This document shows positions 61 through 45,709 of a DNA stretch of 55,853 bases, in pieces. Position 1 is the first letter of the stretch; each line of letters opens with the position of its first letter. The notes under the pieces are model-generated. The model did no database searches. It had not been told where the DNA came from and saw only the letters and a program-made list of their open reading frames with translations. This DNA comes from Lachnospiraceae bacterium (lineage in GTDB: Bacteria > Bacillota_A > Clostridia > Lachnospirales > Lachnospiraceae): contig QXWX01000042.1 in assembly GCA_009911175.1 (NCBI GenBank), positions 1-55,853 on the forward strand, given 5' to 3'. Made by a program: the position numbers and the translations under genes.

Positions 61-1254
61 TTATAAGTGGCCTAATTTGATTTCATTTGGCCAGCCGGTC
101 ACTCTTAAATACCGAAATCCCATATATGTAAAATGTGGACGGACTGTTTCTTTTCGCCCATCTGAAATATATTCAAATGTTGATTCTGCAATCGTATAAT
201 TATCATGGCAGAAATTCCCATGTTGCAATATTTCCCCACACTCAATTTTTATCCTTGTTCCTTTCGGGAAATCTGCAAAAAACTCCATATAGCCAACCAT
301 ATTTTGTCCAACATCAAGTACCGTTTCTCCGATCGGCGTATGTATGATCTTGACCGGTACGATATCTTCCTTTACTGTCAATGGAAGGCTGTATCTTTCT
401 TTCAATGGTGTTTTTTGCTTCTTTTTTACAGCCTGTTTCCATAGATTTTGTCTGTCATCCCATAATTGACGATTGATCTTTTCTCCGAAGTATATTCCAC
501 TGTCTTCAATGTCACTGCCTTTATATTTCCAATTGTCATCTGTACAGATTACTTCAATTCTGCCATCGAAATATTCAACACGGATCTCGGCTATCAGCAT
601 CATTTCATCACCAAATATTTTTTCACAGCCGTCTAATCCGAATTTTCCTATGTACCATCCCTTCCCTAATAAGAATTCAATTTTATTTTCTTTTTGTTGA
701 AAGAGCAAATCTGTAATATCATATGTTTGATACTGCAAATTATCCTTATAATCATTTATAAATGGAGCAAGATAATCATTTCCTGCTTTTTTCCCATTAA
801 TGTATCCTTCATATACTCCCAGGCCACAGCAGTACAGCCTGGCTTTTTTTATTCCATCTCTTAGATAAAATTTTTTTTGAAATACAGGATGGAATGTATC
901 CTCTTTATCCGTTCCAATCCAATCAGCTTTCCACTTGTGACACATTTTTGCTGTTTCAAAAAAAGCTGTTTCACTAGTCCCATACTCTCCATTTTCACCT
1001 TCCACATAAACCTTCCAGTAATAGGTCGTATAAGGCTTTATTTTGAAATCAGCCAATGTCCCTGTTGAATCCAGTTCTTCCCCTTCCATTTGGAAAACAA
1101 TCTCATGAAACTCCTGATCTGCCGATATGGATATCCTTGCTTTCTTCTGCTGTTTATCTTCTGTTTTACGAACTTTCCAAGAGCAGATTATCTCTTTATA
1201 TTCAAAGCCTATTGGATTCACCATACCATTTATTTTTAAATTATAAATTTCCAT
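61..1254 (-). pseudogene. GH78 alpha-L-rhamnosidase, N-terminal fragment
   Basis: The reading frame encodes about 397 residues that match the N-terminal part of bacterial alpha-L-rhamnosidases: a fibronectin-like start, then the N-terminal and carbohydrate-binding beta-sandwich regions with the typical KADWIGTD, GLGVYEGYINGKKAG, VLDVGQNMVGY and GFRYLRVTGWP stretches. Family members are roughly 850-1000 residues. This one stops at position 61 just after GWPNEIK, before the (alpha/alpha)6 catalytic domain, so the piece seen cannot be an active hydrolase. I could not find the continuation in another frame in the 60 bases left. The ATG at 1254 is preferred over an upstream GTG at 1263 because AAGGTG lies six bases before it. 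It follows the symporter gene by 57 bases on the same strand, suggesting a former rhamnoside-use operon. Whether the break is an insertion, deletion or frameshift needs the neighbouring sequence. Confidence 0.8.
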
Positions 1255-1311
1255 TTTCTTCACCTTAAAGCATCTCGGTTTTCTGCAAATTTTTCCGGTA
1301 AATCAGTTGAT

Positions 1312-30120: not shown

Positions 30121-30148
30121 TTGACAAATGAGATAAAATGTCTATAAT
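30121..30148 (+). promoter_or_regulatory. Predicted sigma-A promoter of the class II aldolase gene
   Basis: Consensus TTGACA (30121-30126), 16-base spacer and TATAAT (30143-30148). The leader to the start at 30295 is about 140 bases, very AT-rich, and holds the direct repeats listed next. Confidence 0.7.
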
Positions 30149-30294: not shown

Positions 30295-30993
30295 ATGACA
30301 GACACAAGTACAAAGATGAGAGAGCTTGGTATTTCAAAGGAGGCTATCGAGGATGTTTTGTTTGTGGCAAAGCGGATGGATGACAAGGGACTTGTAAATT
30401 CCTTTGCGGGCAATATTTCGACAAAGAGGGACGGCAAGATCTACATCACCCCCACCGGACAGAACAAGGGGATGCTGACCCCGGAGAAGATCGCGGTCAT
30501 CAATGAAGCGGGAGAGCGGATCTGGGGCATGAAGGAGACTTCCGAGATCATCATGCATACCATGGCATACGATATCTGCGAGGAGAACGGATGGGATGTA
30601 GGCGGCGTGGTGCACAGCCATTCCAAAGTATTGACCGCGTTTTCCATGGCCTGCCGGGACATTGAGACCGGGGCGCTTCCGGAGATGATGGGCAATTTCC
30701 ACAAGATTCCATGCGCTCCCTACGGCGCGCCGGGAACAAAATACATTCTCACCATGGCAGAGCCCTATCTGGCGGAAGGCTATCGGATCGTACTGCTGGG
30801 GAACCACGGAAGCCTGGCGGTGGGTAAGACGGTGGAGGATGCCATGAACATCGTGGAGGCAAGCGAGGCCATCGCGGAGCAGATCCTGATCACGAATTAC
30901 ATTCTGGGCGGGGAAAAAGCACTTGATCAACTGGAGATCGCAAGATTCTATGAGATCTACAAGGAGAACCGTGCAAAACGGGTAAAAAAATAA
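30295..30993 (+). CDS. Class II aldolase (fuculose/rhamnulose-phosphate aldolase-like)
   Basis: A 232-residue zinc aldolase of the class II aldolase/adducin family. It shows NSFAGNISTKRDGKIYITPT near the N-terminus, catalytic Glu in TSEIIMHT, zinc ligands in VHSHSKV (two His) and GNHGSLAVG (third His). FucA and RhaD enzymes of this fold split ketose-1-phosphates into DHAP and an aldehyde; related ones act on ribulose-phosphates or 3-oxo-tetronate phosphates, so the substrate cannot be named. The ATG at 30295 has GGAAGG just upstream; a longer frame from 30226 lies in the AT-rich leader. It opens a sugar-use island with a rhamnulokinase-like kinase, which suits a 'kinase then aldolase' pathway. 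Confidence 0.87.
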   Translation: MTDTSTKMRELGISKEAIEDVLFVAKRMDDKGLVNSFAGNISTKRDGKIYITPTGQNKGMLTPEKIAVINEAGERIWGMKETSEIIMHTMAYDICEENGWDVGGVVHSHSKVLTAFSMACRDIETGALPEMMGNFHKIPCAPYGAPGTKYILTMAEPYLAEGYRIVLLGNHGSLAVGKTVEDAMNIVEASEAIAEQILITNYILGGEKALDQLEIARFYEIYKENRAKRVKK

Positions 30994-31043: not shown

Positions 31044-31185
31044 TGTCTGATAAGAGTGTGCGTATTTACTGCAGGATCCATGCGAAAATGCAGGAGGTAC
31101 AAAAGACAAGCCTAATCGTAAGGGCAATTTTACTCAGCAGAATGCAGACAAGCTGCATGTGTTTCAGGAAAGGCGGACAGGACTT

Positions 31186-32409
31186 ATGGAAAATGAATCA
31201 ATTCTGGAAAGCAGAAAATACTACCAACGCAACAAGATGCTAAGTGTGATCCGGACAAACACGGACGTTTCCCGCAACGACATTCGGAAGATGACGGCCT
31301 ACAGCATGACCACCGTGATGAATACCGTGGAGGACATGATCCGGGACGGCCTGATCTACGAGGAGGAATGTGAGGAGGCAAGGGTCGGAAGAAAACCGGT
31401 CTGGCTCCGTCTGAATCCTCATGGAGGATATTTCGTGGGAGTGGAGTGGAACCGCACATGGATGCATTGCGTCGTTCTCGATTTTACAGGACAGCCGGTC
31501 CACCGGCAGAGAAAGGCGCTCGATGACGCGCATCGGTGCACGGACGGGCTGCTCGGTCTGATCAAGGACATGGTCCGGGAGGCGATCCGGGTACCCGAGG
31601 GCGGGAAAGAGAAGATCATCGGGATCGGGCTTGGCGTGCCAGGCTACAGCGACAAGACGAAGGGGATCGCGCTATCCTACACCTACTTTGAGGGGTGGAA
31701 GAATATCCCGGTGAGACAGATCATAGAAGAGGAATTTCAGATTCCCTGTTATATGGGAAATAACGTAGATGTGATGATCTACGCCTATAAATGGCTGGTG
31801 TTCCATGGCTCCTGTGACGATATGCTGTTCATATCTGTCAGAACCGGCGCCAGGGTCATGCCGGTCATCAACAACCAGGCGGTGAGCAGCAGATACGGTT
31901 TTCCAGGAGAGCTGGGCCATATCCGGGTCGGCACCGGGAGCAGGATGTGCTCCTGCGGACGCTATGGCTGTCTGAATTCCGAGGTGTCGGATGTGGCCAT
32001 TATGGGCAAGATCCGGGACGGTGTACTGGCCGGAAGATTTAAGGGGATCACGGATATGATCCATGGAGATACGGAGAAGATTACGATGGCGGTATTTCGC
32101 GAGGCGGTTCTTGCGGGAGATGAGGATTCGCTGGGGCTCCTACAGCAGACCTGCCAATATCTGGGAAAGGCTCTTGGCATCCTGGTCAATATCTTCGCAC
32201 CCAGCAGGATCGTCATGTACGGGGAGCTTGCTTCCATTGGAACTCCCTTCCTGGAACGTCTGAGAGCCTGTGTGGAACGGGACGCCATCCCGGAAAACAC
32301 GGATATATTAAATATAGAAGTTTCTGAATTTGGTCCGGACCTGGGAGCCATGGGCGCCGCGGCGCTGGTGTTGCAGGAAGCATTCGAATTTCTGGAAGAG
32401 ACCATCTAA
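31186..32409 (+). CDS. ROK-family transcriptional regulator
   Basis: A 407-residue regulator of the NagC/XylR type. An N-terminal winged helix (TDVSRNDIRKMTAYSMTTVM, about residues 25-45) is followed by a ROK sugar-kinase fold with IIGIGLGVPGYSD and the zinc site GHIRVGTGSRMCSCGRYGC (His plus three Cys, about residues 245-262). The motif ends GCLN where most family members have GCLE. The protein likely binds a sugar or sugar phosphate and represses the flanking genes. The ATG at 31186 is preferred, giving the usual short N-terminus, although its ribosome site (AGGAC) is weak. It lies between the aldolase and the kinase-transporter operon and probably controls both. Confidence 0.88.
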   Translation: MENESILESRKYYQRNKMLSVIRTNTDVSRNDIRKMTAYSMTTVMNTVEDMIRDGLIYEEECEEARVGRKPVWLRLNPHGGYFVGVEWNRTWMHCVVLDFTGQPVHRQRKALDDAHRCTDGLLGLIKDMVREAIRVPEGGKEKIIGIGLGVPGYSDKTKGIALSYTYFEGWKNIPVRQIIEEEFQIPCYMGNNVDVMIYAYKWLVFHGSCDDMLFISVRTGARVMPVINNQAVSSRYGFPGELGHIRVGTGSRMCSCGRYGCLNSEVSDVAIMGKIRDGVLAGRFKGITDMIHGDTEKITMAVFREAVLAGDEDSLGLLQQTCQYLGKALGILVNIFAPSRIVMYGELASIGTPFLERLRACVERDAIPENTDILNIEVSEFGPDLGAMGAAALVLQEAFEFLEETI

Positions 32410-32564: not shown

Positions 32565-34055
32565 ATGAAGGAAAGATTGATGATTGCCGCCGATATCGGC
32601 GCAAGCGGCGGAAAGATGGCCGCCGCCGTGTTTGACGGCAGGCAGATGCACATAAATGAATATTGGGATTTCCCGAACCGCCCGGCGGATATCGGAACGG
32701 CGCTTTACTGGGATGTGTTTGGACTCTATCATTCCGTTCTGGACGGGCTCGCCCTCTTTCGGGGAAAATACGGACAGGCAGATACATTTGCCATAGACAC
32801 ATGGGGCGCCAGCTACGGACTGCTGGACGGCTTCGGACGGCTTCTGGAGCCAGTCTACCATTACCGGGATGAACGGACCTCGGGAACGATGGAGGACATG
32901 AAGCAGGTGATGGACGAGTGGGAGCTGTTTCAACTCACCGGATGCCAGTGCAACAGGACGTATACGCTTCCGCAGCTCTATTCCTATGTGGTACAGAAGA
33001 GCCGGATCCTGGAATCAGCGGAGGACATGCTGTTCCTGCCGGATCTGTTGTCCTATTTCCTGGGAGGGGAGATCAGCTGCGAGATGACCATCGCCGGAAC
33101 CTCCTGCCTTCTGGAGAACCGGCAGGAGGACTGGAGCCGCCAGGTGATGAAACGCTTCGCCCTTCCGGAAAAAATGCTGCCGCCCATCGTGGAGCCGGGC
33201 AACACGAAAGGAAGCTTCGGGGCCTGGGTGACCGAGAAGACCGGGATGCAGAAGACCCGGATCATTGCGGCAGTGAGCCATGACAGTGCCGCGGCAGTGG
33301 CGGCTATTCCGGATTTCGGAAAAGAAGATCTGTACATCAGCGTGGGAACCAGCATCAGTATGGGCATTGAGAGAGAGGACTGCCTGCTGACCAGGGAGGC
33401 CTATGAAAAGGGCTTCAAGAATACCGGAGGAATCGACCGGAGAAAGATCATTTATCGGGATTTCTCGGCAAGCTGGCATATCAATGAATTTTTGCGGACA
33501 AAGCGGGAAGAGGGAAAGGATTATACCCACCCGGATCTGATTTGGCTTGCCCAGAATACGCCGTCCCCTCGTGTTTACATTGATGTGGAGGACGCGCTGC
33601 TCGGCACCGCGGGAGGCGATACGTGCGCGAAGATCAATGACTATCTGCGGCGTACAGGTCAGCCGCTGCTGGAAAAGGACGGCGAGTTTATCCGGTGTAT
33701 CTATGAAAGCATTGCAATGAAGGCGCGGCATTATGCCTGTGCGTTCCGGGAGCTGGGAGAGCATTTTTCAAGGGTCTATGTGATCAACGGAGGTTCCAGA
33801 AACGGGCTTTTGATGCAGTTCATCAGCAACGCCCTGGATATGGAGATCCATGCGGGAATGACCTATGCCACGATCTCCGGCAATCTGCTGACACAGCTGT
33901 ATGCCCAGGGCGAGGTGACGTCGGTGGAGCAGATGCGGCAGCTCTCAAAGGAGTCCTTTGAATTGAAGGTGTATGAGCCGGAGCAGGGGGCGCGGTGGAG
34001 AGAGGAATTTGCAAGGTATCAAATATTGGAGTCCAGTCAATCAATCAAAAAATAA
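32565..34055 (+). CDS. FGGY carbohydrate kinase, rhamnulokinase-like
   Basis: A 496-residue FGGY kinase. The first ATP-binding strand reads IAADIGASGGKMAAAVFD, close to rhamnulokinase (GASSGR). DTWGASYGLLDGFGRLLEPV, YRDERT and FLPDLLSYFLGG are also rhamnulokinase-like, and the catalytic Asp is in SHDSAAAVAAIP (about residue 239). VINGGSRNGLLMQFISNALD is the late adenosine-binding motif. It would phosphorylate a ketose at C1 or C5. No aldose isomerase is encoded nearby, so the substrate is open. Either ATG 32565 or ATG 32580 (which has AAGGAAAG before it) may be the start. It leads an operon with the ABC importer: the next gene begins 12 bases after its stop. Confidence 0.87.
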   Translation: MKERLMIAADIGASGGKMAAAVFDGRQMHINEYWDFPNRPADIGTALYWDVFGLYHSVLDGLALFRGKYGQADTFAIDTWGASYGLLDGFGRLLEPVYHYRDERTSGTMEDMKQVMDEWELFQLTGCQCNRTYTLPQLYSYVVQKSRILESAEDMLFLPDLLSYFLGGEISCEMTIAGTSCLLENRQEDWSRQVMKRFALPEKMLPPIVEPGNTKGSFGAWVTEKTGMQKTRIIAAVSHDSAAAVAAIPDFGKEDLYISVGTSISMGIEREDCLLTREAYEKGFKNTGGIDRRKIIYRDFSASWHINEFLRTKREEGKDYTHPDLIWLAQNTPSPRVYIDVEDALLGTAGGDTCAKINDYLRRTGQPLLEKDGEFIRCIYESIAMKARHYACAFRELGEHFSRVYVINGGSRNGLLMQFISNALDMEIHAGMTYATISGNLLTQLYAQGEVTSVEQMRQLSKESFELKVYEPEQGARWREEFARYQILESSQSIKK

Positions 34056-34067
34056 AGGAGGAAAAAC

Positions 34068-35456
34068 ATGTTTAAGAAAATGGTAAGTGTAATGCTTGCA
34101 GGCGCTATGGTGATCAGTCTTGCGGCCTGCGGCGGAGGCAACGCGGGCGGAGAGAGCGGCAGCCAGAGCGGGGCAGACAGCGGCAGCGAGGCGGAAGGTG
34201 AAGAAAGCGGCAATGAGGGCGGCAGCAGTGAAGCGGGCGGATCCATTTCCCTGTGGACCTGGTCACCGGTGACACGTACTGCGGAAAAGATGATCGCGGC
34301 ATTTGAAAAGGAAAATTCCGATATCAAGATTGACTATACGAACTACAACTATAATCCCGAATACTTAGAGGCGATCTCCGCGGCTTCATCTGCGGACAAT
34401 CTTCCGGATATCATGGGACTGCAGCCGGGTTCTCTGACTCAGACTTATTCCGATTATCTGATCGATCTCGGAGAATATGCGAAAAAAGAGTGGGGCGATG
34501 ACTGGACATCCGTATACGACAATGTAACCCAGAGTCAGCTCCAGTTAGGAAATGAGGAGGGGGACGACAGTTACTACATTCTCCCCATTGAGACGCAGGT
34601 AATCTATATCGAGTACAACAAGACCCTCTTTGACAGTCTCGGCCTGAAGGCTCCGACCACATACGCAGAGCTGGTAGACTGCTCAAAGAAACTCAGGGAC
34701 GGCGGCTATGCTCCGTTATTCTTCGGCGGCGCTGACGGATGGCAGCATGTAAACCTGCTGATTATGTGTACCTCACAGATCGACAAAGATCTCTTCGACG
34801 CATGTCAGAACGGCGAGAAGGAATGGACCTGCGACGAGATGAAGAAAGCAATGACCAACTACAAGAAACTGTTTGACGACGGCGTGATCCAGGACGGCGC
34901 GCTTTCCTCCACAAGCTACAGCGACGGAACGACTTTGTTCCTCGCAGGCCAGGCGGGAATGATGGCTCTGGGTTCCTGGTGGGCGCAGGAATATACGGCA
35001 GAAGATGTGGCGGATGCGGTTGCGAACTGGGATTATGACTACTTTTATCTCCCGGCAATCTCTGACGATGTGGAAGACTCCAAACCCATCGGCGGCGTAG
35101 ACTTCGGATACGGCATCACAAAGAACTGCAAGAATCCTGAAGCGGCATGGAAAGCTCTGGCCAGCTTCGCGGCAGGCGCGGGCGGACAGGAGATCGCGAA
35201 CGATATGAACAACCATCTGTCCTATCCAAATATGGAGCCGGATACCAGCGCGATGATCGAGAGAGACGGCCTGCAGAATGCGGTTGACGAGTTCAACAGA
35301 TCCGGTAAGGATATCGCGGGTGGACTGGTAAACCAGCGTATCGCGGAATCCACCATCGAGACGGCGGTTCAGGAAGCAATGCAGGGACTGGTCGGCGGAG
35401 AATATGATGTAGACGCGGCAGCGGCTCACATTCAGGAAGCACAGGATGCTCTGTAA
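34068..35456 (+). CDS. Sugar ABC transporter substrate-binding lipoprotein
   Basis: A 462-residue extracytoplasmic solute-binding protein of family 1 (MalE-like). The signal peptide ends in LAAC (Cys21 lipidated), then a Gly/Ser/Glu-rich linker (about 22-60) and a two-lobed binding domain with SLWTWSPVTRTAEKMIAAFE, LPDIMGLQPGS and GKAAMMxxGSWW-type features (here GQAGMMALGSWW). It delivers an oligosaccharide or sugar derivative to the permeases encoded next. AAAGGAGG precedes the ATG. Composition and linker are usual for Lachnospiraceae sugar-binding proteins. No ATPase gene is in the cluster, so a shared MsmK-type ATPase elsewhere must drive it. Confidence 0.93.
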   Translation: MFKKMVSVMLAGAMVISLAACGGGNAGGESGSQSGADSGSEAEGEESGNEGGSSEAGGSISLWTWSPVTRTAEKMIAAFEKENSDIKIDYTNYNYNPEYLEAISAASSADNLPDIMGLQPGSLTQTYSDYLIDLGEYAKKEWGDDWTSVYDNVTQSQLQLGNEEGDDSYYILPIETQVIYIEYNKTLFDSLGLKAPTTYAELVDCSKKLRDGGYAPLFFGGADGWQHVNLLIMCTSQIDKDLFDACQNGEKEWTCDEMKKAMTNYKKLFDDGVIQDGALSSTSYSDGTTLFLAGQAGMMALGSWWAQEYTAEDVADAVANWDYDYFYLPAISDDVEDSKPIGGVDFGYGITKNCKNPEAAWKALASFAAGAGGQEIANDMNNHLSYPNMEPDTSAMIERDGLQNAVDEFNRSGKDIAGGLVNQRIAESTIETAVQEAMQGLVGGEYDVDAAAAHIQEAQDAL

Positions 35457-35726: not shown

Positions 35727-36659
35727 GTGGAGAATACAAAGATCAAGAAAAAGCAGAAGATCAACTGGATCGCATATCTGTTTATCGCTCCGGCGATGTT
35801 CTTCTTCTGTATGTATATTTTGTACCCCATTTTGTTCGTTTCGACACACAGTGTTTATAAATGGTCAACCCTGTCAAAAATGGAATTCGTCGGACTGGCC
35901 AATTATTTCAGTCTCTTAAAGGATTCTACGTTCTGGACGACCATCAAAAACTCGGCGGTCTGGATTCTGGTCACAGTACCGATACAGGCCTGTCTCGGAT
36001 TTATCCTTGCGTACATCATTGAGGAGCGGCTCGGACGGAAAAAACGCAATGGAAAAGGAATCTCGAAGATGGTATTCCGTACCATTTTTTTTATACCGGT
36101 CGTTACCTCTGTTACGGTCGTAGCGATCGTGTGGAGCAAGATTTTTCAGCCCTATCAGGGGATCCTGGGGTATTATCTGAACCAGTGGTTCAATATGTCC
36201 CCGACCATCAACGTTCTGGGCAACGCAAAAGTAGCCCTGTTCGGAGTGATGCTGGCCAATATCTGGGAGTGGACGGGATGGTCCATGATCATGTATGTAG
36301 GCGGCCTGTCGCAGATTTCCGATGATATCAAGGAAGCAGCGCGGATCGACGGAGCGACAGTATGGCAGGAGCTCAGGTATGTATACCTGCCCTCTCTGGC
36401 ATCGGTGCACAAGTCGCTGCTGATGCTGGGTGTGATCGGTTCATTGCAGACTTACGCGCTGGTGGGCGTGATGACCAACGGTGGACCGAACCATGCGACG
36501 GAGATGCCGGGAACCTACATCTTCCTCAAGGGCTTTACCCAGAACCAGATGGGCTATGCATGTACCATTTCGGTTGCGATCCTGTTAGTCGCGTTGATCC
36601 TGACCTTTATACAGGTTCGGTTCCTTGGTTCCGGTGATTTTATGAAGAAAGGAGACTGA
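35727..36659 (+). CDS. Sugar ABC transporter permease (MalF type)
   Basis: A 310-residue permease with six membrane helices. The EAA loop that contacts the ATPase reads EAARIDGATVWQELRYVYLP (about residues 205-224). The N-terminal basic segment followed by WIAYLFIAPAMFFFCMYILY is typical. Start is GTG at 35727 with GAGGAGGG at good distance. The second permease follows after two bases. Confidence 0.93.
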   Translation: MENTKIKKKQKINWIAYLFIAPAMFFFCMYILYPILFVSTHSVYKWSTLSKMEFVGLANYFSLLKDSTFWTTIKNSAVWILVTVPIQACLGFILAYIIEERLGRKKRNGKGISKMVFRTIFFIPVVTSVTVVAIVWSKIFQPYQGILGYYLNQWFNMSPTINVLGNAKVALFGVMLANIWEWTGWSMIMYVGGLSQISDDIKEAARIDGATVWQELRYVYLPSLASVHKSLLMLGVIGSLQTYALVGVMTNGGPNHATEMPGTYIFLKGFTQNQMGYACTISVAILLVALILTFIQVRFLGSGDFMKKGD

Positions 36660-36661
36660 CC

Positions 36662-37513
36662 ATGGCAAATTCAAATCAAAAATCCGGGTCTCGTCCGCAG
36701 ATGGGGCAGGCAGGATGGATTCTGCTGCTGATTATTGCGACGGTCATGACATTGCTGCCTTTGATCTTTACGCTCAGCCTGTCCTTTCGGACGCAGAATT
36801 CTATCTATGATCCGCGCCTGTTTGTGACGGAACTGACCAACGGCAATTATATCAAGGCAATGAAAGATAATCCAACCATTCCTTATAATTTCCTGGCCAG
36901 CTTTGTGATCTCTACGGTTTCCACGGTTGCGACGGTGCTGTTCGCGTCCATGGCCGTGTTCGGGTTTTCCAGGGAAAATGTGAAGGGGAAGCTGCTCATG
37001 TATAACATGATCATGTGTGCCCTGATGGTTCCGATCAGCGCGCTGGTGATTCCAATCACGCAGCTCAACAGCAGGTTCGGACTTCTGGACAATTATTTCG
37101 GGCTGATCTTTCCGTACATTGCGCTGAATATCCCCTATGCGGTGACGATCCTGCAGGGGTTTATGTCGGGAATTCCAAAGGAGCTGGAGGAGGCGGCCAT
37201 CATCGACGGCTGTTCCACGCCGGGACTGTATGTGCGGATCGTGCTGCCGCTGCTGAAATCCGGTATCGTGGTGGTTTCCATTTGGACCTTCCTGACCTGC
37301 TGGAATGAGTTTTTCCTGGCGCTGTGTACGATGACGAAGGCCACGACAAAGACCCTCCCGCTGATCGCGCAGCAGTACAAGGGCGTATACAACAGCCAGC
37401 CAGGAGTCCTGTTTGCGATTCTGATCATTATCACGATCCCGATGATCATCTTCTATTCCATTGTGCAGAAGCAGTTTGTGAAGGGTATGACATCCGGCGC
37501 GGTGAAGGGATAA
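36662..37513 (+). CDS. Sugar ABC transporter permease (MalG type)
   Basis: A 283-residue permease with six membrane helices, partner of the preceding gene. The EAA loop reads EEAAIIDGCSTPGLYVRIVL (about residues 176-195). AAAGGAG in the end of the previous gene precedes the ATG. The C-terminus KQFVKGMTSGAVKG is the usual end of this family. The stop is followed after 11 bases by the DhaK-like gene, so import and the atypical kinase are one operon. Confidence 0.94.
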   Translation: MANSNQKSGSRPQMGQAGWILLLIIATVMTLLPLIFTLSLSFRTQNSIYDPRLFVTELTNGNYIKAMKDNPTIPYNFLASFVISTVSTVATVLFASMAVFGFSRENVKGKLLMYNMIMCALMVPISALVIPITQLNSRFGLLDNYFGLIFPYIALNIPYAVTILQGFMSGIPKELEEAAIIDGCSTPGLYVRIVLPLLKSGIVVVSIWTFLTCWNEFFLALCTMTKATTKTLPLIAQQYKGVYNSQPGVLFAILIIITIPMIIFYSIVQKQFVKGMTSGAVKG

Positions 37514-37524
37514 GTGAGAAGCGT

Positions 37525-38475
37525 ATGTGGATATGGAACAGTGAAGAAACAGCGCTTAGAGAAGCGCTGGAAGGGATCCTGTATGCGGAGCCCGGAATAT
37601 ATGAGAAGCTGGATACAAAATATGGCTGCGGCCTGTTCCGGAAACATCTGCCGGAGGATCAGGTGCGGGTCATTGTAGACGGAGGAGGCGGCTATGGCCC
37701 CATGTGGGCCGGTTTCGCCCGGCAGGGGCTGGCGGATGCGGCGGTGCATGGTGAGTTCAACTGCGCTCCTAATGCCTATGTGCTCTATGAGATGGCAAAA
37801 ACAATTGACGCGGGGAAAGGAGTACTGTTTTTGTGCAATCATTTCATGGGAGATTATCTGAATAATGACATGGCGCTGGAGCTGTTGGCGCATGAGGGAA
37901 TCCGGGCAAGGGCCTGTTATATTTCCGATGATGTGTGCAGCTGTATCGGCGAGGAAAAAGAGTCAAGGGGCGGACTCCACGGCATCGCCCAGGTTGCGAA
38001 GCTGGCATCCGCAGCCGCGGGCCGGGGGGATTCTCTGGAACAGGTGTGGCGTCTGGCGAAAAAGGGCAATGAACGGCTGCGCTCTGTCACGATGAAGGTG
38101 GAGGAAGAGGGGAAGCTCCTGGTTGGACCGGGATTTTCCGGGGAGCCTCCGGTGGAGAGTGTGCCTTTTGAATCGGCGGACCAGTTGGTATCTCTGGCGG
38201 TTGACAGGCTTCTGGCGGAGCTGGAGCCTTACGGCCCGAAGGAGGTGTTCCTGTGCGTCAACCGATTGCGGCGGATGTGCTTTACCGAGGGCTTTGTGGT
38301 GCTCCGCGCGGCGGTTCGGCGTTTGCAGAAAAAAGGGATTGCCGTGTGCGGCAGCTCAGTGGGCACGTATTTTGATGTGTTTGATTCCAACGGCTGCATG
38401 ATCTCGCTGCTGGCTGTGGATGAGGAGATGAAAGCCTGCCTGGGAAAAGCATCAGGCTATGATTTTACGGTCTGA
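37525..38475 (+). CDS. DhaK-like protein lacking both catalytic histidines
   Basis: A 316-residue protein with the DhaK (dihydroxyacetone-kinase substrate subunit) fold. DGGGGYGPMWAGFARQGLAD corresponds to the DhaK motif GGGSGHEP..AGF; LFLCNHFMGDYLNNDMALEL to the NYTGDxxNF strand; and VGPGFSGEPP to GxGIHGEPG. In E. coli DhaK, His56, Asp109 and His218 act on dihydroxyacetone, His218 by a covalent hemiaminal. By this alignment they are Gly58, Asp110 and Ser205 here, so the covalent mechanism is lost while the Asp remains. It therefore probably binds another ketone or sugar, or has a regulatory role. An upstream in-frame region belongs to the permease; the ATG at 37525 gives a normal N-terminus but the ribosome site is weak. 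A DhaL-like gene follows by 14 bases. Confidence 0.82.
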   Translation: MWIWNSEETALREALEGILYAEPGIYEKLDTKYGCGLFRKHLPEDQVRVIVDGGGGYGPMWAGFARQGLADAAVHGEFNCAPNAYVLYEMAKTIDAGKGVLFLCNHFMGDYLNNDMALELLAHEGIRARACYISDDVCSCIGEEKESRGGLHGIAQVAKLASAAAGRGDSLEQVWRLAKKGNERLRSVTMKVEEEGKLLVGPGFSGEPPVESVPFESADQLVSLAVDRLLAELEPYGPKEVFLCVNRLRRMCFTEGFVVLRAAVRRLQKKGIAVCGSSVGTYFDVFDSNGCMISLLAVDEEMKACLGKASGYDFTV

Positions 38476-38489
38476 GAGAGGGGATAAGG

Positions 38490-39119
38490 ATGGGGCAGAT
38501 TAACGTAGAAACACTTCAGGAAATGTTTTTTCATGGGGCAGAGCTGATCATCGAAAAGGAACCGCGGCTGACGGAAATCGATTCGGTGATCGGGGACGGA
38601 GATCACGGAACCGGGATGAAGCGGGGATTTTCCGCAGTGAAAATGATGCTTTGCGAAAGGAAATTTCACTATGTAGATGAGCTCTGCCAGGCGGTCAGTC
38701 TGGAACTGATCAAAAGCATGGGCGGAGCTTCGGGGGTGATCTTCGGGACCATGTTCTTCGGCGGGATCGGCAGACTACCGCATGGAGACGCGGTATCAAC
38801 GGAAGAACTGGCGGATTATTTTTATGACGGCGAGCAGGCTATTGAACGCAGGGGCCGCTCAAAGCCGGGGCAGAAGACCATGCTGGATGCGTTGTATCCT
38901 GCTGTCTGTGCATTGAAGGAGCATGCGGGGACACAGGCAGGCGAAATGCTTGCGGCGGCGTATCAGGCGGCGGCAAAAGGCGCGGAGAAGAGTAAGGGCA
39001 TCCTGCCCAAGGTGGGACGCAGCAAGAACTTCCGGGAGGAGGCGATCGGGCTTCCGGATCCGGGAGCAGTGTCTGTGAGCTATCTGTTCCGGGCGTTTTC
39101 GGAGGTGCTGGGGAACTGA
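38490..39119 (+). CDS. DhaL-like ATP/ADP-binding kinase subunit
   Basis: A 209-residue all-helical protein of the DhaL family. The Mg-ADP binding aspartates are all kept in IDSVIGDGDHGTGMKRGF (Asp31, Asp36, Asp38, equivalent to Asp30/35/37 of DhaL), followed by MGGASGVIFGTMFFGG and RGRSKPGQKTMLDALYPAV, both standard. DhaL subunits pass phosphate from ADP/ATP to the substrate held on DhaK; with PTS-dependent DhaK the donor is DhaM, while stand-alone pairs use ATP. No DhaM is encoded here. Coupled to the atypical DhaK-like gene, it suggests a two-component kinase for an unidentified substrate. AGGGGATAAGG precedes the ATG. Confidence 0.87.
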   Translation: MGQINVETLQEMFFHGAELIIEKEPRLTEIDSVIGDGDHGTGMKRGFSAVKMMLCERKFHYVDELCQAVSLELIKSMGGASGVIFGTMFFGGIGRLPHGDAVSTEELADYFYDGEQAIERRGRSKPGQKTMLDALYPAVCALKEHAGTQAGEMLAAAYQAAAKGAEKSKGILPKVGRSKNFREEAIGLPDPGAVSVSYLFRAFSEVLGN

Positions 39120-39168: not shown

Positions 39169-40020
39169 ATGTTGGAGAAGGTCAGTAATATTTTGAAGCT
39201 TGCGGATCAGTGCAATACGTCTGCGATTGCATTTATCTGTACGGATTATAATATGGTATATTCGGTCGTGACGACTGCGGAAAAGACGAATACACCAGTC
39301 ATCGTGATGCTGCTGCCGGAGCATGTGGAAATGAACAATACCATGAATGTCAGCGGATTTGCACAGATGGCAAAGGAACTGGCGGCCTCGGTGAAGGTTC
39401 CGGTGGGACTGCATCTGGACCACAGCTATGATTACAGATCTGTGATGCAGGCCATCCGCGGGGGATTTGACTCTGTAATGATCGATGCGTCCGCCCATGA
39501 GCTGGACGAAAATATCGCCGTGACCAGAAAGGTAGTGGAGACGGCGCACATTTTCGGCGTGGATGTGGAAGCGGAGATCGGGCACGTAGGACTTGCTCAG
39601 GACTGCGACGGCGACAAGAGTGATTTTTATACAAAGGCAGATGCCGCCGAACGATTCTGCCGGGAGACCGGATGTGATTCCCTGACCATTGCTATCGGAA
39701 ATGCCCACGGCGTCTATGTGGAAACGCCCCATCTGGACATTGCCCGGCTGGAGGAGATCAACGCGGCGACGGATGTGCCGCTGGTGCTTCACGGAGGAAG
39801 CGGGATCCCTCACGACCAGCTGGAGATTGCATTTACAAAAGGAATCAATAAGTTTAATGTGGGGACCGAGTTCCTGGGCGTGTACTATGACGCGGTGACG
39901 GAATATGTGAAGAAGACTGAGGGCGACGGAAGGCCGCTGAAGATGCTGGAGGTTCCCATGTTCGTGCAGGAACGGCTGGAGAAGTATCTGGAAGAGAAAT
40001 TGAAATTGTCGAAGTTTTGA
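39169..40020 (+). CDS. Class II ketose-bisphosphate aldolase
   Basis: A 283-residue zinc aldolase of the FbaA/GatY/KbaY group. The catalytic Asp and first zinc His lie in LHLDHSYD, the Gly/Ala-rich phosphate site in GFDSVMIDASAHELDEN, further zinc His residues in AIGNAHGVY and LHGGSGIP, and the phosphate-binding KFNVGTEF near the C-terminus. Such enzymes split fructose-, tagatose- or sorbose-type bisphosphates into DHAP and an aldehyde phosphate; some act on inositol or sulfo-sugar intermediates. It is the second aldolase of the island and the last gene before a strong terminator. AGGAG-type site and ATG at 39169 are clear. Its substrate probably is the product of one of the two kinases here. 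Confidence 0.9.
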   Translation: MLEKVSNILKLADQCNTSAIAFICTDYNMVYSVVTTAEKTNTPVIVMLLPEHVEMNNTMNVSGFAQMAKELAASVKVPVGLHLDHSYDYRSVMQAIRGGFDSVMIDASAHELDENIAVTRKVVETAHIFGVDVEAEIGHVGLAQDCDGDKSDFYTKADAAERFCRETGCDSLTIAIGNAHGVYVETPHLDIARLEEINAATDVPLVLHGGSGIPHDQLEIAFTKGINKFNVGTEFLGVYYDAVTEYVKKTEGDGRPLKMLEVPMFVQERLEKYLEEKLKLSKF

Positions 40021-40806: not shown

Positions 40807-43266
40807 ATGGGAGAATTAGCAATTCAAAATGAAGAAATCATAAAAAAAGGCAGGAAACATCGGAATCACAATCATGAGATATATGAGTCGCATGTTCAAG
40901 ACCATGGAGAACATTGCGGCTGCGGCCACAACCATGAGGAACATATTCACGAATCCCATGAGCATCATCATGACCATGGAGAACATTGCGGCTGCGGCCA
41001 TGATCATGAGGAACATATTCACGAATTCCATGAGCATCATCATGTTCACGGAGAGCATTGCGGCTGCGGCCACGATCACGGTCATGAAGGTCATCACGAC
41101 CACGAGGGCCACCACCACGAGCCGATAGAGCGCCGCCCGGTCAATCACGCGTTTGACGGTGTGAAAAAGCAGATTTACATCATCGAGAACCTGGGCTGCG
41201 CCAACTGCGCGGCGAAGATGGAGCGAAAGATCCAGGAGCTGCCCCAGGTGGATTATGCCAACCTGATCTATGCCACCAAACAGCTCCAGATCGTGACGAA
41301 TACAAGCGAGGAACTCCTTCCCGTATTCCAGGAAATCTGTGCTTCCATCGAAGACGGTGTGACTCTAACAAAGCAGGAGACCAAGCAGGCCGCGTCGGAA
41401 CGGAAGGAAGCAGAAAAGGAGAAAGCCAGAGAGAACAAAAAGGACATCTGGGAGCTCGGTATCGGCGCGGTGCTTATGGCTGCGGGAGTCGTGACAGAGC
41501 GTTATTCCGTGACGGCATCGGCAGTTCTTTTGATCATTGCGTACCTGATACTGGGCAGGCATGTTCTTTTAACAGCCGGAAAAAATCTCATAAAGGGCCA
41601 TGTGTTTGACGAAAATTTTCTGATGAGCATTGCCACCCTCGGCGCGTTTGCCATACAGGATTATACGGAAGCAGTGGGAGTCATGCTCTTTTACCGCGTC
41701 GGGGAATTGTTCGAGGACATTGCTGTTGCGCGCAGCAGAAGCCAGATCATGGATGCCGTAGACCTGCGGCCTGAGGTGGTCAATCTGGTGCATGGCGGGG
41801 AAGTACAGGTGATTCCGGCAGAGCGGGCAAAGCCCGGCGACCTTCTGCTGGTACGCCCCGGCGACCGGATCCCGTTGGACGGTACGATCGCGGAAGGAGA
41901 GAGCCGAATTGATACATCTCCTGTGACCGGGGAGCCGGTTCCTGTAGCGGCAGGAACCGGCGACAGTGTGATTTCCGGCTGTGTGAACACTTCCGGACTT
42001 TTAAAGATTCGTGTAGAAAAAGCGCTGGAAGATTCCATGGTAACGAAGATTTTGGATTCCGTGGAAAACGCGGCCGCAAGCAAACCGAAGATCGACCGGT
42101 TTATCACACGGTTTTCCAGAATCTATACGCCTATCGTGGTAGGTCTGGCGGCGGCAACGGCGATCCTGCCGTCCCTGGTGACCGGTAACTGGCAGTACTG
42201 GATCTATACGGCTTTGACCTTCCTGGTCATCAGCTGTCCGTGCGCATTGGTCCTGAGTGTACCGCTGGCCTTTTTCTCAGGGATAGGAGCTGGCTCGAAG
42301 CAGGGGATTCTCTTCAAGGGCGGCATTGCCATCGAGGCACTGCAGGATGTCAGGGCGGTTGTCATGGATAAGACCGGAACCGTTACGGAGGGGAACTTTG
42401 AACTTCAAAGAGTGATCCCGGCAAAAGGATTTACGGAAGAACAGGTACTTGCGCTGGCAGGAACCTGTGAACAGAACTCGACCCATCCCATCGCGGCCAG
42501 CATTATGGCGGCGGCAGAACAACAGGGGATCACATGCCCCCGCCCGGACTCTGTCAAGGAAATTGCGGGAAAGGGTGTGGAAGCAGTCACGGAAGCCGGT
42601 ACACTTCTCTGCGGAAGCAGGTCCCTTCTCGTGGAGGATGGCATCACACTGGAAGAGGGGCAGGTAGGCAGCTATGGAACCGAGGTGCTTCTGGCAGTCA
42701 ATGGAAAGTATGCCGGATGCCTGGTCATTGCGGATACGGTGAAGGAAGACGCGAAGCCTGCGGTTCAGGCAATGAAGCGGCAGGGGATCGCGACCGCCAT
42801 GCTGACCGGAGACGCGGCGGAAACAGCCCGCGCGGTTGCGGCTGAGACAGGGATCGATGAAGTCCACGCGAAGCTGCTTCCGGAACAAAAGGTTCAGGAG
42901 CTGACCCGCATCCGCAGCACACACGGCAGTGTGATGTTTGTCGGGGACGGCATCAACGACGCGCCTGTACTGGCCGGGGCCGATGTGGGAGCGGCTATGG
43001 GAAGCGGAGCGGACGCGGCAATTGAAGCGGCGGATGTGGTGTTCATGACCTCCGCTATGAATGCGATCCCGCAGGCGTTGTCCATCGCCAGGGCAACCGG
43101 ACGGATCGCGCGGCAGAATGTGATATTCGCCCTGATCATCAAGGCAGCGGTCATGGTGCTGGGCCTGGCAGGCCTGGCAAATATGTGGATGGCGGTCTTT
43201 GCGGATACAGGCGTGGCGATGCTGTGCATCTTAAATTCCATCCGCATCCTCTACCAAAAACAGTAA
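40807..43266 (+). CDS. Zn/Cd-type P1B ATPase with His-rich N-terminus
   Basis: An 819-residue heavy-metal pump. Residues 15-105 form three imperfect repeats of the type HGEHCGCGHDHEEHIHE, rich in His and Cys. A heavy-metal-associated domain follows with NLGCANCAAKME (about 128-139). The membrane CPC motif is Cys477-Pro-Cys479 (SCPCALVLSVPLAF), the phosphorylated Asp521 lies in DKTGTVTEGNF, and the HP motif is in STHPIAASI. This combination is usual for Zn2+/Cd2+/Pb2+ exporters (P1B-2). The His-rich arm may buffer or sense zinc. GGGAGG lies before the ATG, and an ArsR operator sits in the promoter. The direct repeats in the DNA of the His-rich arm create long antisense frames that are not genes. 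Confidence 0.94.
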   Translation: MGELAIQNEEIIKKGRKHRNHNHEIYESHVQDHGEHCGCGHNHEEHIHESHEHHHDHGEHCGCGHDHEEHIHEFHEHHHVHGEHCGCGHDHGHEGHHDHEGHHHEPIERRPVNHAFDGVKKQIYIIENLGCANCAAKMERKIQELPQVDYANLIYATKQLQIVTNTSEELLPVFQEICASIEDGVTLTKQETKQAASERKEAEKEKARENKKDIWELGIGAVLMAAGVVTERYSVTASAVLLIIAYLILGRHVLLTAGKNLIKGHVFDENFLMSIATLGAFAIQDYTEAVGVMLFYRVGELFEDIAVARSRSQIMDAVDLRPEVVNLVHGGEVQVIPAERAKPGDLLLVRPGDRIPLDGTIAEGESRIDTSPVTGEPVPVAAGTGDSVISGCVNTSGLLKIRVEKALEDSMVTKILDSVENAAASKPKIDRFITRFSRIYTPIVVGLAAATAILPSLVTGNWQYWIYTALTFLVISCPCALVLSVPLAFFSGIGAGSKQGILFKGGIAIEALQDVRAVVMDKTGTVTEGNFELQRVIPAKGFTEEQVLALAGTCEQNSTHPIAASIMAAAEQQGITCPRPDSVKEIAGKGVEAVTEAGTLLCGSRSLLVEDGITLEEGQVGSYGTEVLLAVNGKYAGCLVIADTVKEDAKPAVQAMKRQGIATAMLTGDAAETARAVAAETGIDEVHAKLLPEQKVQELTRIRSTHGSVMFVGDGINDAPVLAGADVGAAMGSGADAAIEAADVVFMTSAMNAIPQALSIARATGRIARQNVIFALIIKAAVMVLGLAGLANMWMAVFADTGVAMLCILNSIRILYQKQ

Positions 43267-43364
43267 GCTCGCTAAAACCTCGCTAACTGTTTCTTGACGC
43301 ATCGCGCGTAAGCGGATAAAGAACATCCGCTAAGTGCTCATAGCTACCAAAAACAGTAAGCTCG
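43251..43364. repeat. 21-bp direct repeat at the ATPase 3' end
   Basis: CTACCAAAAACAGTAAGCTC plus G occurs at 43251-43271, spanning the last codons and stop of the ATPase, and again identically at 43344-43364. The second copy lies 93 bases downstream in noncoding DNA and looks like a partial tandem duplication. Confidence 0.75.
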
Positions 43365-43387
43365 ACAGGAAATGTGAAAAAGATATG

Positions 43388-43420
43388 AAAGCCGCGGTTG
43401 GAAAAAGCCGCGGCTTTTCT
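43388..43420 (+). terminator. Intrinsic terminator after the His-rich ATPase
   Basis: AAAGCCGCGG (43388-43397) pairs perfectly with CCGCGGCTTT (43408-43417), then TTCTT. It directly abuts the -35 box of the next promoter. Confidence 0.8.
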
Positions 43421-43448
43421 TGACCCGCCTGCGTATTTCACGTATAAT
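43420..43448 (+). promoter_or_regulatory. Predicted promoter of arsR and the second ATPase
   Basis: TTGACC (43420-43425), 17-base spacer, TATAAT (43443-43448), 26 bases before the ArsR start. No ArsR-type palindrome overlaps it, so this unit may be constitutive while the first ATPase is regulated. Confidence 0.7.
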
Positions 43449-43474
43449 AAAAACTTGTAAAGGAGATTACAACT

Positions 43475-43834
43475 ATGGATAAGATAGAAGTGGAGCATTG
43501 TGACTTTGTGCATGTTCATGAAGACATTGTGAAGGATGTCAGGGAGCATATGCCGGATACGGAGCAGCTGCAGGCGCTGGCGGATTTTTACAAGGTGTTC
43601 GGAGATTTTACGAGAATCCGTATCCTGTGCATCCTGCTCCGGGGCGAAATGTGTGTCTGCGATCTGGCGCAGACCCTGGACATGACCCAGTCCGCCATTT
43701 CCCACCAGCTCCGTGTGCTGAAGCAGATGAAGCTGGTGACGAACCGGAGGGAAGGCAAGACTGTCTTCTATTCCCTGGCGGACGGACATATCAGGACGAT
43801 CATCAATCAGGGTATGGAGCATATACAGGAGTAA
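43475..43834 (+). CDS. ArsR/SmtB-family zinc-sensing repressor
   Basis: A 119-residue winged-helix repressor. The recognition helix is MTQSAISHQLRVLKQM (about 70-85). The alpha-5 metal site is complete: Asp103, His105, His116 and Glu119, with the exact D-x-H-x10-H-x2-E spacing of SmtB/CzrA zinc sensors. Additional cysteines in GEMCVCDLA (60 and 62) are the alpha-3 position used by CadC/ArsR, and His/Cys residues lie at the N-terminus (HCDFVHVHED), so Cd/Pb sensing by a second site is possible. Zinc binding should release the operator at 40756. A ribosome site (AAGGAG) is present, and the second ATPase starts three bases after its stop. Confidence 0.93.
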   Translation: MDKIEVEHCDFVHVHEDIVKDVREHMPDTEQLQALADFYKVFGDFTRIRILCILLRGEMCVCDLAQTLDMTQSAISHQLRVLKQMKLVTNRREGKTVFYSLADGHIRTIINQGMEHIQE

Positions 43835-43837
43835 GGA

Positions 43838-45709
43838 ATGTCAAAGGAAATAAAGATCAGGCTTGTCGAGCTTGCCGCCGGTTCCGTACTGTATCTTGGC
43901 CTTCTGATCGGAGGGCGGTATGATTACTGGAATCTGGCAGTCACGAAAGAGATGGAGCCGGTACTGTTTATGGCTGCATACGTGATACTTGCGGCAGACA
44001 CATGCTGGCAGACAGCAAAAAAGCTCAGGCATTTGCTGCTCTTTGATGAAAATCTGCTCATGCTGTTTGCAACCGGCGGTGCGCTGTACTTGGAAAAACA
44101 TACGGAAGCAGCAGCTGTGATGCTGATCTTTCATATCGGAAAGCTGATCGAGTCGCAGACTTTGGATCATACCAAGCGGTCCATCGCGAAGTTTATGGAC
44201 ATCCGGCCAGCCTTCGCGAACCGGAAGCGGGGGCTGGGGGAAGAGACAGTCAGCCCGGAGGAGCTCCGGATCGGACAGATCATCGTGATCCGGCCAGGGG
44301 AGAAGATTCCGGTTGACGCGGTGGTCATGCGGGGCCTCGGCAATATTGACGAAAAGGCGCTGACAGGAGAATTTCAGCCCAGAAGCGTCAGCATGGGCAG
44401 CAGGATCTACAGCGGCAGCATCAACATGGACGGTGTTTTGGACGCCCGGGTGACCCGGGTTTATGAGGAGTCTACGGCTGCAAAGATTCTGAGTATGGTG
44501 GAAGACGCAATGAGCAATAAAGGGGAAAGCCAGAGTTTGGCGGAAAGGTTTACCCGATTCTACAGCCCCATTGTAACAATACTTGGAATCCTGGTGATGC
44601 TCCTTCCGCCTGTGCTGCTTTCAGGACAGGAGCCGGAGACATGGTTCTATCGGGGATTGATATTTCTGGCGGCTGCCTGCCCCAGCGGGCTGCTGGCCTC
44701 GGTGACCGTTGCGTTTCTGGGAGGCCTCGGCGCGGCATCCAGGCAGGGAGTTCTGATTAAGAGCGGCAGCTATCTGGAAGCGCTGTCTCAGACAGACACA
44801 TTTATTTTTGATAAGACAGGGACGCTGACGGAAGGGACATTTGGCTTAAAAGAAATCTGTCCCAAGGGAATCACTGCGGCCCAGCTTCTGGAGATCACAG
44901 CCTACGCAGAAGCCTATTCCAGCCACCCTATCGCGCTGTCTCTCCGGGATGCCTACGAAAAAGGAATTGATACGTCCAGAATTGGCTACATACAGGAACG
45001 CTCCGGGCTGGGGATTGAGGCTGTGATCGACGGGATGCGGGTCTATACCGGCAACGTCAGGTTCATGGAAGCGCTGGGGATTCAGACGCAGAAGGTGAAG
45101 GGCAGCGGTACAGCGGTTCATGCTGCCGTGGGCAGGAGATATGTGGGCTATGTGCTGATCTCGGACCGGGTCAGAGGAGACGTCAACGATACGATCCGGT
45201 GGCTGCGTCAGCAGCGCATGGAAGTGATGATGCTGACGGGAGACAACGAGCATGTGGCAAATGATGTGGCAAGGTCACTCGGTATTGAATATGTCTATGC
45301 GAATCTGATGCCCCAGGATAAGGTTGCCCAGCTGGAAGAGATCATGAGCGCTCAGCTGGAATCGGAAAAGCTGGCATTTGTGGGGGACGGGATCAATGAC
45401 GCTCCGGTGCTTGCGCGGGCGGATATCGGGATCGCCATGGGCGGCCTGGGATCGGACGCGGCTCTGGAGGCGGCAGATATCATCCTGATGGAGGATGAAC
45501 CCTCGCGGATCATCAATGCCATCCGGATTTCACGGGGGACGGTCCGGGCGGTGAAAGAAAACCTGTACTTTTCCCTTTTCATCAAAGTGATCCTGCTGGG
45601 ACTTGCATTTTTCGGAGGAGTTACTATGGGAGACGCGGTGATCGTCGACGTGGCAGTCCTGGCGATCGGCCTGCTGAATTCGTTCTGGGTATTGAAATTT
45701 CCGGAATGA
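43838..45709 (+). CDS. P1B-type ATPase with CPS motif
   Basis: A 623-residue metal-transport P-type ATPase without any N-terminal metal-binding domain. The actuator motif is LTGEFQP where most have TGES. The membrane motif is Cys281-Pro-Ser283 (AACPSGLLASVTVAF) instead of CPC. The catalytic Asp325 is in FDKTGTLTEGTF, the HP motif in YSSHPIALSL, and the hinge in FVGDGINDAPVLARADIGIA, so it should be active. Loss of the second cysteine changes the metal site, so selectivity may differ from that of the His-rich pump 5' of it. It is the second gene of the arsR unit, its ATG three bases after the ArsR stop. Confidence 0.9.
   Translation: MSKEIKIRLVELAAGSVLYLGLLIGGRYDYWNLAVTKEMEPVLFMAAYVILAADTCWQTAKKLRHLLLFDENLLMLFATGGALYLEKHTEAAAVMLIFHIGKLIESQTLDHTKRSIAKFMDIRPAFANRKRGLGEETVSPEELRIGQIIVIRPGEKIPVDAVVMRGLGNIDEKALTGEFQPRSVSMGSRIYSGSINMDGVLDARVTRVYEESTAAKILSMVEDAMSNKGESQSLAERFTRFYSPIVTILGILVMLLPPVLLSGQEPETWFYRGLIFLAAACPSGLLASVTVAFLGGLGAASRQGVLIKSGSYLEALSQTDTFIFDKTGTLTEGTFGLKEICPKGITAAQLLEITAYAEAYSSHPIALSLRDAYEKGIDTSRIGYIQERSGLGIEAVIDGMRVYTGNVRFMEALGIQTQKVKGSGTAVHAAVGRRYVGYVLISDRVRGDVNDTIRWLRQQRMEVMMLTGDNEHVANDVARSLGIEYVYANLMPQDKVAQLEEIMSAQLESEKLAFVGDGINDAPVLARADIGIAMGGLGSDAALEAADIILMEDEPSRIINAIRISRGTVRAVKENLYFSLFIKVILLGLAFFGGVTMGDAVIVDVAVLAIGLLNSFWVLKFPE

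Follow-up and report, generated by a model that had tools for sequence, protein, structure and literature searches.

A histidine that binds the substrate covalently is regarded as the hallmark by which dihydroxyacetone kinases select short carbonyl compounds, and a kinase subunit in which that histidine is replaced raises the question of what it might phosphorylate. Such a subunit, DhaK-like and followed by a DhaL-like partner, is encoded in the stretch of Lachnospiraceae DNA analyzed here (contig QXWX01000042.1, 55,853 nucleotides, hereafter the window). A first-pass annotation, whose coordinates and reading frames for both genes proved correct (Table 1), had proposed that the pair is a kinase acting on something other than dihydroxyacetone, namely a tetrulose, ketopentose or sugar acid, or else a sensor pair. 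Our analysis favours, with moderate confidence, a two-component ketose-1-kinase acting without a covalent intermediate, whose product would be split by the aldolase encoded next to it into dihydroxyacetone phosphate (DHAP) and an aldehyde. The residue replacements, their conservation, the clade, the gene order and the aldolase pattern are read from the sequences, and from them we infer that the pair is active, that it acts at C1, which kind of sugar it takes and why, as set out below, a hemiketal might make the histidine dispensable; the neighbourhood evidence is correlative throughout.

A Dak1 branch lacking the covalent histidine

Residues were equated by sequence alignment with Escherichia coli DhaK, in which we take His218 to be the covalent residue, His56 to assist it and Asp109 to act as general base. 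His218 corresponds to Ser205 of the window protein (GPGFSGEP versus GVGIHGEP), and His56 and Glu57 to Tyr57 and Gly58 (GGGGYGPM versus GGGSGHEPM, ungapped). Both histidines are thus replaced, as first annotated, with the correction that the second had been placed at Gly58 instead of Tyr57. Ser80 and Lys104 are likewise exchanged, for Ala and Asn, and Asp109 is conserved as Asp110, again as annotated. With Ser205 in place of His218, the known hemiaminal mechanism would be closed to the pair. Its DhaL subunit exceeds the TIGR02365 equivalog cut-off and carries the Mg-binding Asp triad, Asp31, Asp36 and Asp38, equivalent to E. coli Asp30, Asp35 and Asp37 and invariant in all 39 aligned DhaLs, which included partners of His-less as well as canonical DhaK; with these nucleotide residues intact, DhaL is predicted to be nucleotide-competent. 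The DhaK-like protein scored below the cut-off of all four NCBIfam models that it matched, including the DhaK equivalog TIGR02363 (159.8 bits, cut-off 406.25) and the DhaQ equivalog TIGR02362 (88.8 bits, cut-off 413.25). Its best score, to NF011049 (PRK14479, dihydroxyacetone kinase family protein), was 201.3 bits, far below the cut-off of 492, a comparison made by score only. No match of this type was found in PHROGs.

Defining His-less proteins by Ser or Ala at position 205, 132 of 180 aligned Dak1 rows belong to this kind, hereafter S-type (129 with Ser, 3 with Ala). Among them, Ala81, Asn105 and Asp110 are invariant, and positions 58, 81, 105, 114 and 205, each unlike canonical DhaK, are nearly frozen. 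Position 58 is Gly in 121 rows and His in 4, and position 57 is more variable (Tyr in 57, Asn in 22, Arg in 12, His in 1). No column of the 132 rows exceeds 38% His (maximum 50/132), hence there is no conserved replacement histidine. A tree was built from 116 rows after thinning to 80% identity, and in it a single branch with support 100/99 separates the His-less rows from the rest. The ratio of nonsynonymous to synonymous substitution rates (dN/dS) of the window DhaK was 0.12 against L002 and 0.22 against L004.

A pattern scan of a genome collection gave, among the 100 matches listed, at least 38 S-type loci, on which all later S-type counts are based; their hosts are Lachnospiraceae, other Clostridia including Oscillospiraceae, Synergistota and one Treponema. 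The closest genome record among these matches, an uncultured Lachnospiraceae contig, encodes a DhaK 97% identical to that of the window, and the protein of Schaedlerella arabinosiphila shares 83% identity. The family looks rare, as His-less matches in even genome draws were sparse. Among 150 genomes from the family of Blautia schinkii (G002), 38 had a match, three of them His-less by score (G002, G003 and G123), and these three showed no locus beyond L004, L012 and L024, judged on higher-scoring matches. Across 398 genomes drawn evenly from the phylum, an alignment-based search at E 1e-70 matched only the seed genome G002, with at most five candidates scored per genome. Plasmid records with a Dak1 match numbered 590, each below 60% identity. 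Titles and abstract openings of open-licence papers yielded no account of a DhaK without the covalent histidine, and no relevant paper on apiose was found in the same literature. The His-less proteins are a real, well-conserved Dak1 branch, undescribed within the literature searched, and automatic annotation labels them 'dihydroxyacetone kinase subunit DhaK'. In four loci (L020, L029, L034 and L038), long antisense open reading frames (ORFs) overlie the S-type gene.

The partner aldolase and its predicted substrate

In the window, the pair lies within a nine-gene run on the + strand, delineated from ORFs and Pfam/NCBIfam profiles, with importer genes before it and a gene of the class II fructose-bisphosphate aldolase (FBA) family after it. 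Neighbourhoods were counted by tblastn, a partner aldolase being one more than 50% identical to that of the window or to two close forms of it, and downstream genes were counted in the 35 loci whose sequence continues for more than 1.5 kb beyond DhaK, as 3 of the 38 end earlier. DhaL follows in 34 of the 35 and the partner aldolase in 33. Importer genes of the RbsA/RbsC or MalF/MalG kind, one or more per locus, are found within 7.5 kb in 37/38 loci, in L008 only via a 33% permease match. Twenty regions surrounding further Dak1 genes served as a control; two (L122, L133) proved to belong to an N-type lineage described below, leaving 18 canonical. No partner aldolase at 50% identity was present near these 18, and distant FBA matches (33-38%) lay near two (L117, L123). 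Five S-type loci (L022, L023, L024, L032 and L037) carry tandem, diverged DhaK copies before one DhaL, followed by the partner aldolase and a ribokinase-like gene; copies sharing one DhaL may form a heterodimer or provide two specificities.

Residues of 34 partner aldolases encoded near S-type DhaK, each with an uninterrupted frame of 255 residues or more, were compared with E. coli FbaA; the product of L006:3841-4656 is not an aldolase and was left out. The catalytic Asp, the metal ligands and the DHAP-side residues are kept in 34/34. At the place of Arg331, which we take to bind the C6 phosphate, none of the 34 has Arg (Leu in the window), and none has Ser at that of Ser61. E. coli KbaY and GatY keep the equivalent Arg, which is missing from YdjI, annotated as a ketose-1-phosphate aldolase. 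On this residue pattern, the partner aldolase should cut a ketose-1-phosphate: with the DHAP side intact and the C6-phosphate Arg missing, the predicted kinase product is a ketose-1-phosphate, and since the Dak active site phosphorylates the hydroxyl adjoining the carbonyl carbon, DhaK-DhaL would be its natural source. Among the substrates named in the first-pass annotation, a ketopentose fits, as does a ketohexose; a plain sugar acid fits poorly, and so does a tetrulose, which would yield formaldehyde.

Twelve relatives of the partner aldolase were found outside S-type loci in a set of 150 genomes, and 10 of their regions were examined. Their neighbours are either a member of the ADP-dependent sugar kinase family or kinases of the PfkB or FGGY type (profile-scanned in L104, L108 and L109, otherwise recognized by similarity or by eye); the kinase slot is taken there by other kinase families. 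In three of these regions (L104, L106 and L110), the ADP-dependent sugar kinase family member (assigned to PF04587 by the scan of L104) is accompanied by a pair of FBA-family aldolases, a D-lyxose isomerase and an ATP-binding cassette (ABC) importer; these regions may encode a further undescribed route through ketose phosphates in Lachnospiraceae.

In the mechanism that we propose, DhaK would bind an imported ketose, probably of five or six carbons, non-covalently, in a pocket remodelled by the exchange of the covalent His for Ser205 and of others for Ala81, Asn105 and Asn114. Asp110 would act as general base on the C1 hydroxyl, DhaL would deliver phosphate from the Mg-nucleotide, and the aldolase would cut the ketose-1-phosphate to give DHAP and an aldehyde that carries no phosphate. 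Ring closure makes the C2 of a ketose a hemiketal, so that its ring oxygen could take the place of the His nitrogen in the dihydroxyacetone adduct; as this C2 is tetrahedral in the same way as in the triose bound to His, the histidine would possibly be unnecessary. For the 9/38 loci that also encode a canonical DhaK pair (both histidines present in the 8 read to sufficient length), phosphorylation of the released aldehyde could fall to that pair.

Parts of this scheme resemble known systems. In fructolysis, ketohexokinase, aldolase B and triokinase carry out C1-phosphorylation, cleavage to DHAP and an aldehyde, and phosphorylation of the aldehyde; the S-type loci would share this logic, with the canonical pair of the nine loci as a possible triokinase, but the first two enzymes are unrelated and a bacterial ABC importer is used. 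E. coli YdjH-YdjI likewise joins a kinase to an FBA-family aldolase without the C6-phosphate Arg, annotated for ketose-1-phosphate, YdjH being a PfkB sugar kinase, of a family other than DhaK-DhaL. The PTS-dependent (phosphotransferase system) DhaK-DhaL of E. coli differs in the five residues exchanged above (His218, His56, Glu57, Ser80 and Lys104), and the window operon has an importer and an aldolase, with no dhaM among its genes identified through ORFs, Pfam and NCBIfam. FakA-FakB provides a precedent: its DhaL-like kinase domain acts on a ligand that is bound by a protein of this fold, the EDD fold (PMC9136124); that ligand, however, is a fatty acid, and sequence identity is about 12%. If the ketose-1-kinase reading is true, a conserved branch dispensing with the covalent histidine has re-tooled the Dak fold for larger sugars, giving bacterial two-component 'ketohexokinases' in which the hemiketal ring of the substrate stands in for the hemiaminal of the enzyme, and the automatic label of such proteins needs correcting. 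The loci would suggest that gut Lachnospiraceae, Oscillospiraceae, Synergistota and one Treponema have a ketose pathway that is as yet undescribed.

Other kinases and competing explanations

Several observations weigh against the ketose-1-kinase. The partner aldolase is absent in 2/35 loci (L013, L027), the dN/dS of DhaK and DhaL exceeds that of the aldolase and permease, and gene co-location is a sign of a shared pathway, not proof of a reaction. Further, another candidate kinase lies within 7.5 kb in 31/38 loci: PfkB in 18 (15 tagatose-kinase-like, 5 ribokinase-like and 2 others, several on the opposite strand), FGGY in 5, one of which (L012) also has a 36% 1-phosphofructokinase-like match 6.2 kb away, and the canonical DhaK pair in 9. 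The window operon itself holds two kinase-aldolase couples, DhaK-DhaL with the partner aldolase and an FGGY kinase with a FucA-like aldolase, the latter couple scoring below every NCBIfam cut-off but providing an alternative kinase and a second aldolase. Another enzyme could thus be the sugar kinase in these loci. That DhaK-DhaL is the sole kinase in many loci was rejected: of the seven loci without another candidate, six are truncated on one side, and the seventh, L027, has neither DhaL nor the partner aldolase. This recount lowered our confidence in the ketose-1-kinase reading.

The strongest competitor assigns the sugar to the FGGY, PfkB or other kinase and has DhaK-DhaL phosphorylate, in a triokinase-like manner, the aldehyde released by the aldolase (glyceraldehyde, glycolaldehyde or lactaldehyde). 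The frequent second kinase and the FGGY-aldolase couple of the window fit this proposal, and there is a precedent in the family, since human triokinase phosphorylates glyceraldehyde and triokinase activity exists among Dak proteins (PMC6429413). Nonetheless, we consider it unlikely, at perhaps one chance in a handful: DhaK, DhaL and the partner aldolase are the constant set, and the other kinases shift family and, in several loci, strand; the canonical pair, where present, would suit the aldehyde role better; and the S-type pocket has shifted away from covalent binding of small aldehydes.

An ordinary dihydroxyacetone kinase of low affinity, holding its substrate non-covalently, is considerably less probable. 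Asp110 is kept and PDB 3pnq is, by its title, E. coli DhaK H56N with dihydroxyacetone, but the five non-canonical positions are nearly frozen in 132 relatives and no operon enzyme is an obvious source of dihydroxyacetone. The first-pass annotation is supported in its suggestion of a kinase for another substrate. Its alternative suggestion, a sensor or regulator pair without metabolic flux, like Lactococcus DhaQ-DhaS or E. coli DhaK-DhaR, fared worse and seems to us marginally more remote still. DhaQ is a DhaK paralogue that binds dihydroxyacetone (from PDB titles), and structure matches include DhaQ and DhaR(N)-DhaK complexes; nevertheless, the window protein falls short of the DhaQ model, no DhaS- or DhaR-like gene occurs among the operon genes named by Pfam/NCBIfam, the invariant nucleotide residues of DhaL are kept, and the pair sits between importer and aldolase in operons that already carry regulators of the ROK or DeoR kind. 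Least probable of all is a decayed or moonlighting pseudo-enzyme, which the loss of two catalytic-type residues might suggest, as the single clade with invariant sites, the dN/dS well below 1 and the conserved operon position indicate that the protein is not a decayed copy.

The N-type lineage and the surroundings of the window operon

A further lineage, with Asn at the covalent position (N-type), was found in five genomes, with one locus each. In 5/5, DhaL and a 1-phosphofructokinase-type gene lie within 3 kb on the same strand, with one other gene in between in L151 and L152; such a gene occurs within 5.5 kb in 0/18 canonical and 0/38 S-type loci. All five 1-phosphofructokinase-type products exceed the cut-off of the subfamily model TIGR03168, and that of the equivalog TIGR03828 is reached by three. 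RbsA/RbsC genes are near four of the loci and were not seen at L122. If the partner is a true 1-phosphofructokinase, a ketose-1-phosphate is required, and with an ABC importer its visible source is the N-type DhaK-DhaL; the N-type loci thus probably encode a ketose-1-phosphate pathway, ABC-fed in 4/5. Three of the four aldolases read nearby are bisphosphate-like, with Thr61 and Lys at the Arg331 place. Speaking against the ketose-1-kinase reading, the aldolase at L133:7180 is without the bisphosphate pattern, and the surroundings of the N-type DhaK in L122 and L152 showed no aldolase.

In the unrooted tree, the N-type joins on the branch between S-type and canonical, and it has Ala81 in common with the S-type; two independent losses of the covalent histidine were therefore dropped, a single loss being possible. 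We tentatively suggest, with rather less conviction than for the ketose-1-kinase alone, that both types constitute one Dak1 branch in which the covalent histidine was lost, perhaps once, as triose kinases became non-covalent C1-kinases of cyclic ketoses, the S-type feeding a ketose-1-phosphate aldolase and the N-type a 1-phosphofructokinase and bisphosphate aldolase.

Table 1. Features of the window operon, in window coordinates, and N-type DhaK genes, in locus coordinates.
Feature	Position	Strand	Evidence
Promoter-like site ahead of operon	30121..30148	+	12/12 consensus letters; consensus match only
Class II aldolase/adducin family protein, FucA/OtnC-like	30295..30993	+	PF00596 117.3 bits; no NCBIfam cut-off reached
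ROK family regulator-like protein	31159..32409	+	PF00480; NagC/Mlc-like, below cut-offs
FGGY kinase, rhamnulokinase-like	32565..34055	+	PF00370/PF02782; TIGR02627 278.7 bits vs cut-off 527.95
ABC solute-binding protein	34068..35456	+	PF01547
ABC sugar permease, MalF-like (named by eye)	35727..36659	+	ORF; kept in L001-L004
ABC sugar permease, MalG-like (named by eye)	36662..37513	+	ORF; kept in L001-L004
His-less DhaK-like substrate-binding subunit (S-type), 316 residues	37525..38475	+	Tyr57, Gly58, Asn105, Asp110, Ser205; Pfam Dak1 (PF02733) 184.2 bits vs gathering cut-off 31.4
DhaL, nucleotide-binding kinase subunit, 209 residues	38490..39119	+	Dak2 159.2 bits; TIGR02365 150.8 bits vs cut-off 138.3; PDB DhaL matches; Asp31/36/38
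Partner aldolase, class II fructose-bisphosphate-aldolase-family protein	39169..40020	+	PF01116 260.4 bits; metal and DHAP side intact, C6-phosphate Arg absent
N-type DhaK (Asn at covalent His position)	L122:7972-8979; L133:8067-9083; L150:8008-8997; L151:7994-9010; L152:7940-8968

Promoter-like sites in the region numbered 14, against 10.8 in shuffles. At the left edge of the window (61-1263), an ORF resembling alpha-L-rhamnosidase was seen by eye beside one resembling a major facilitator superfamily glycoside transporter; the former may have a bearing on the rhamnulokinase-like gene 30 kb further along. Beyond the operon (40807-45709), two P-type metal ATPase-like ORFs, the first with a long His-rich N-terminus, flank an ArsR-like regulator, likewise recognized by eye.
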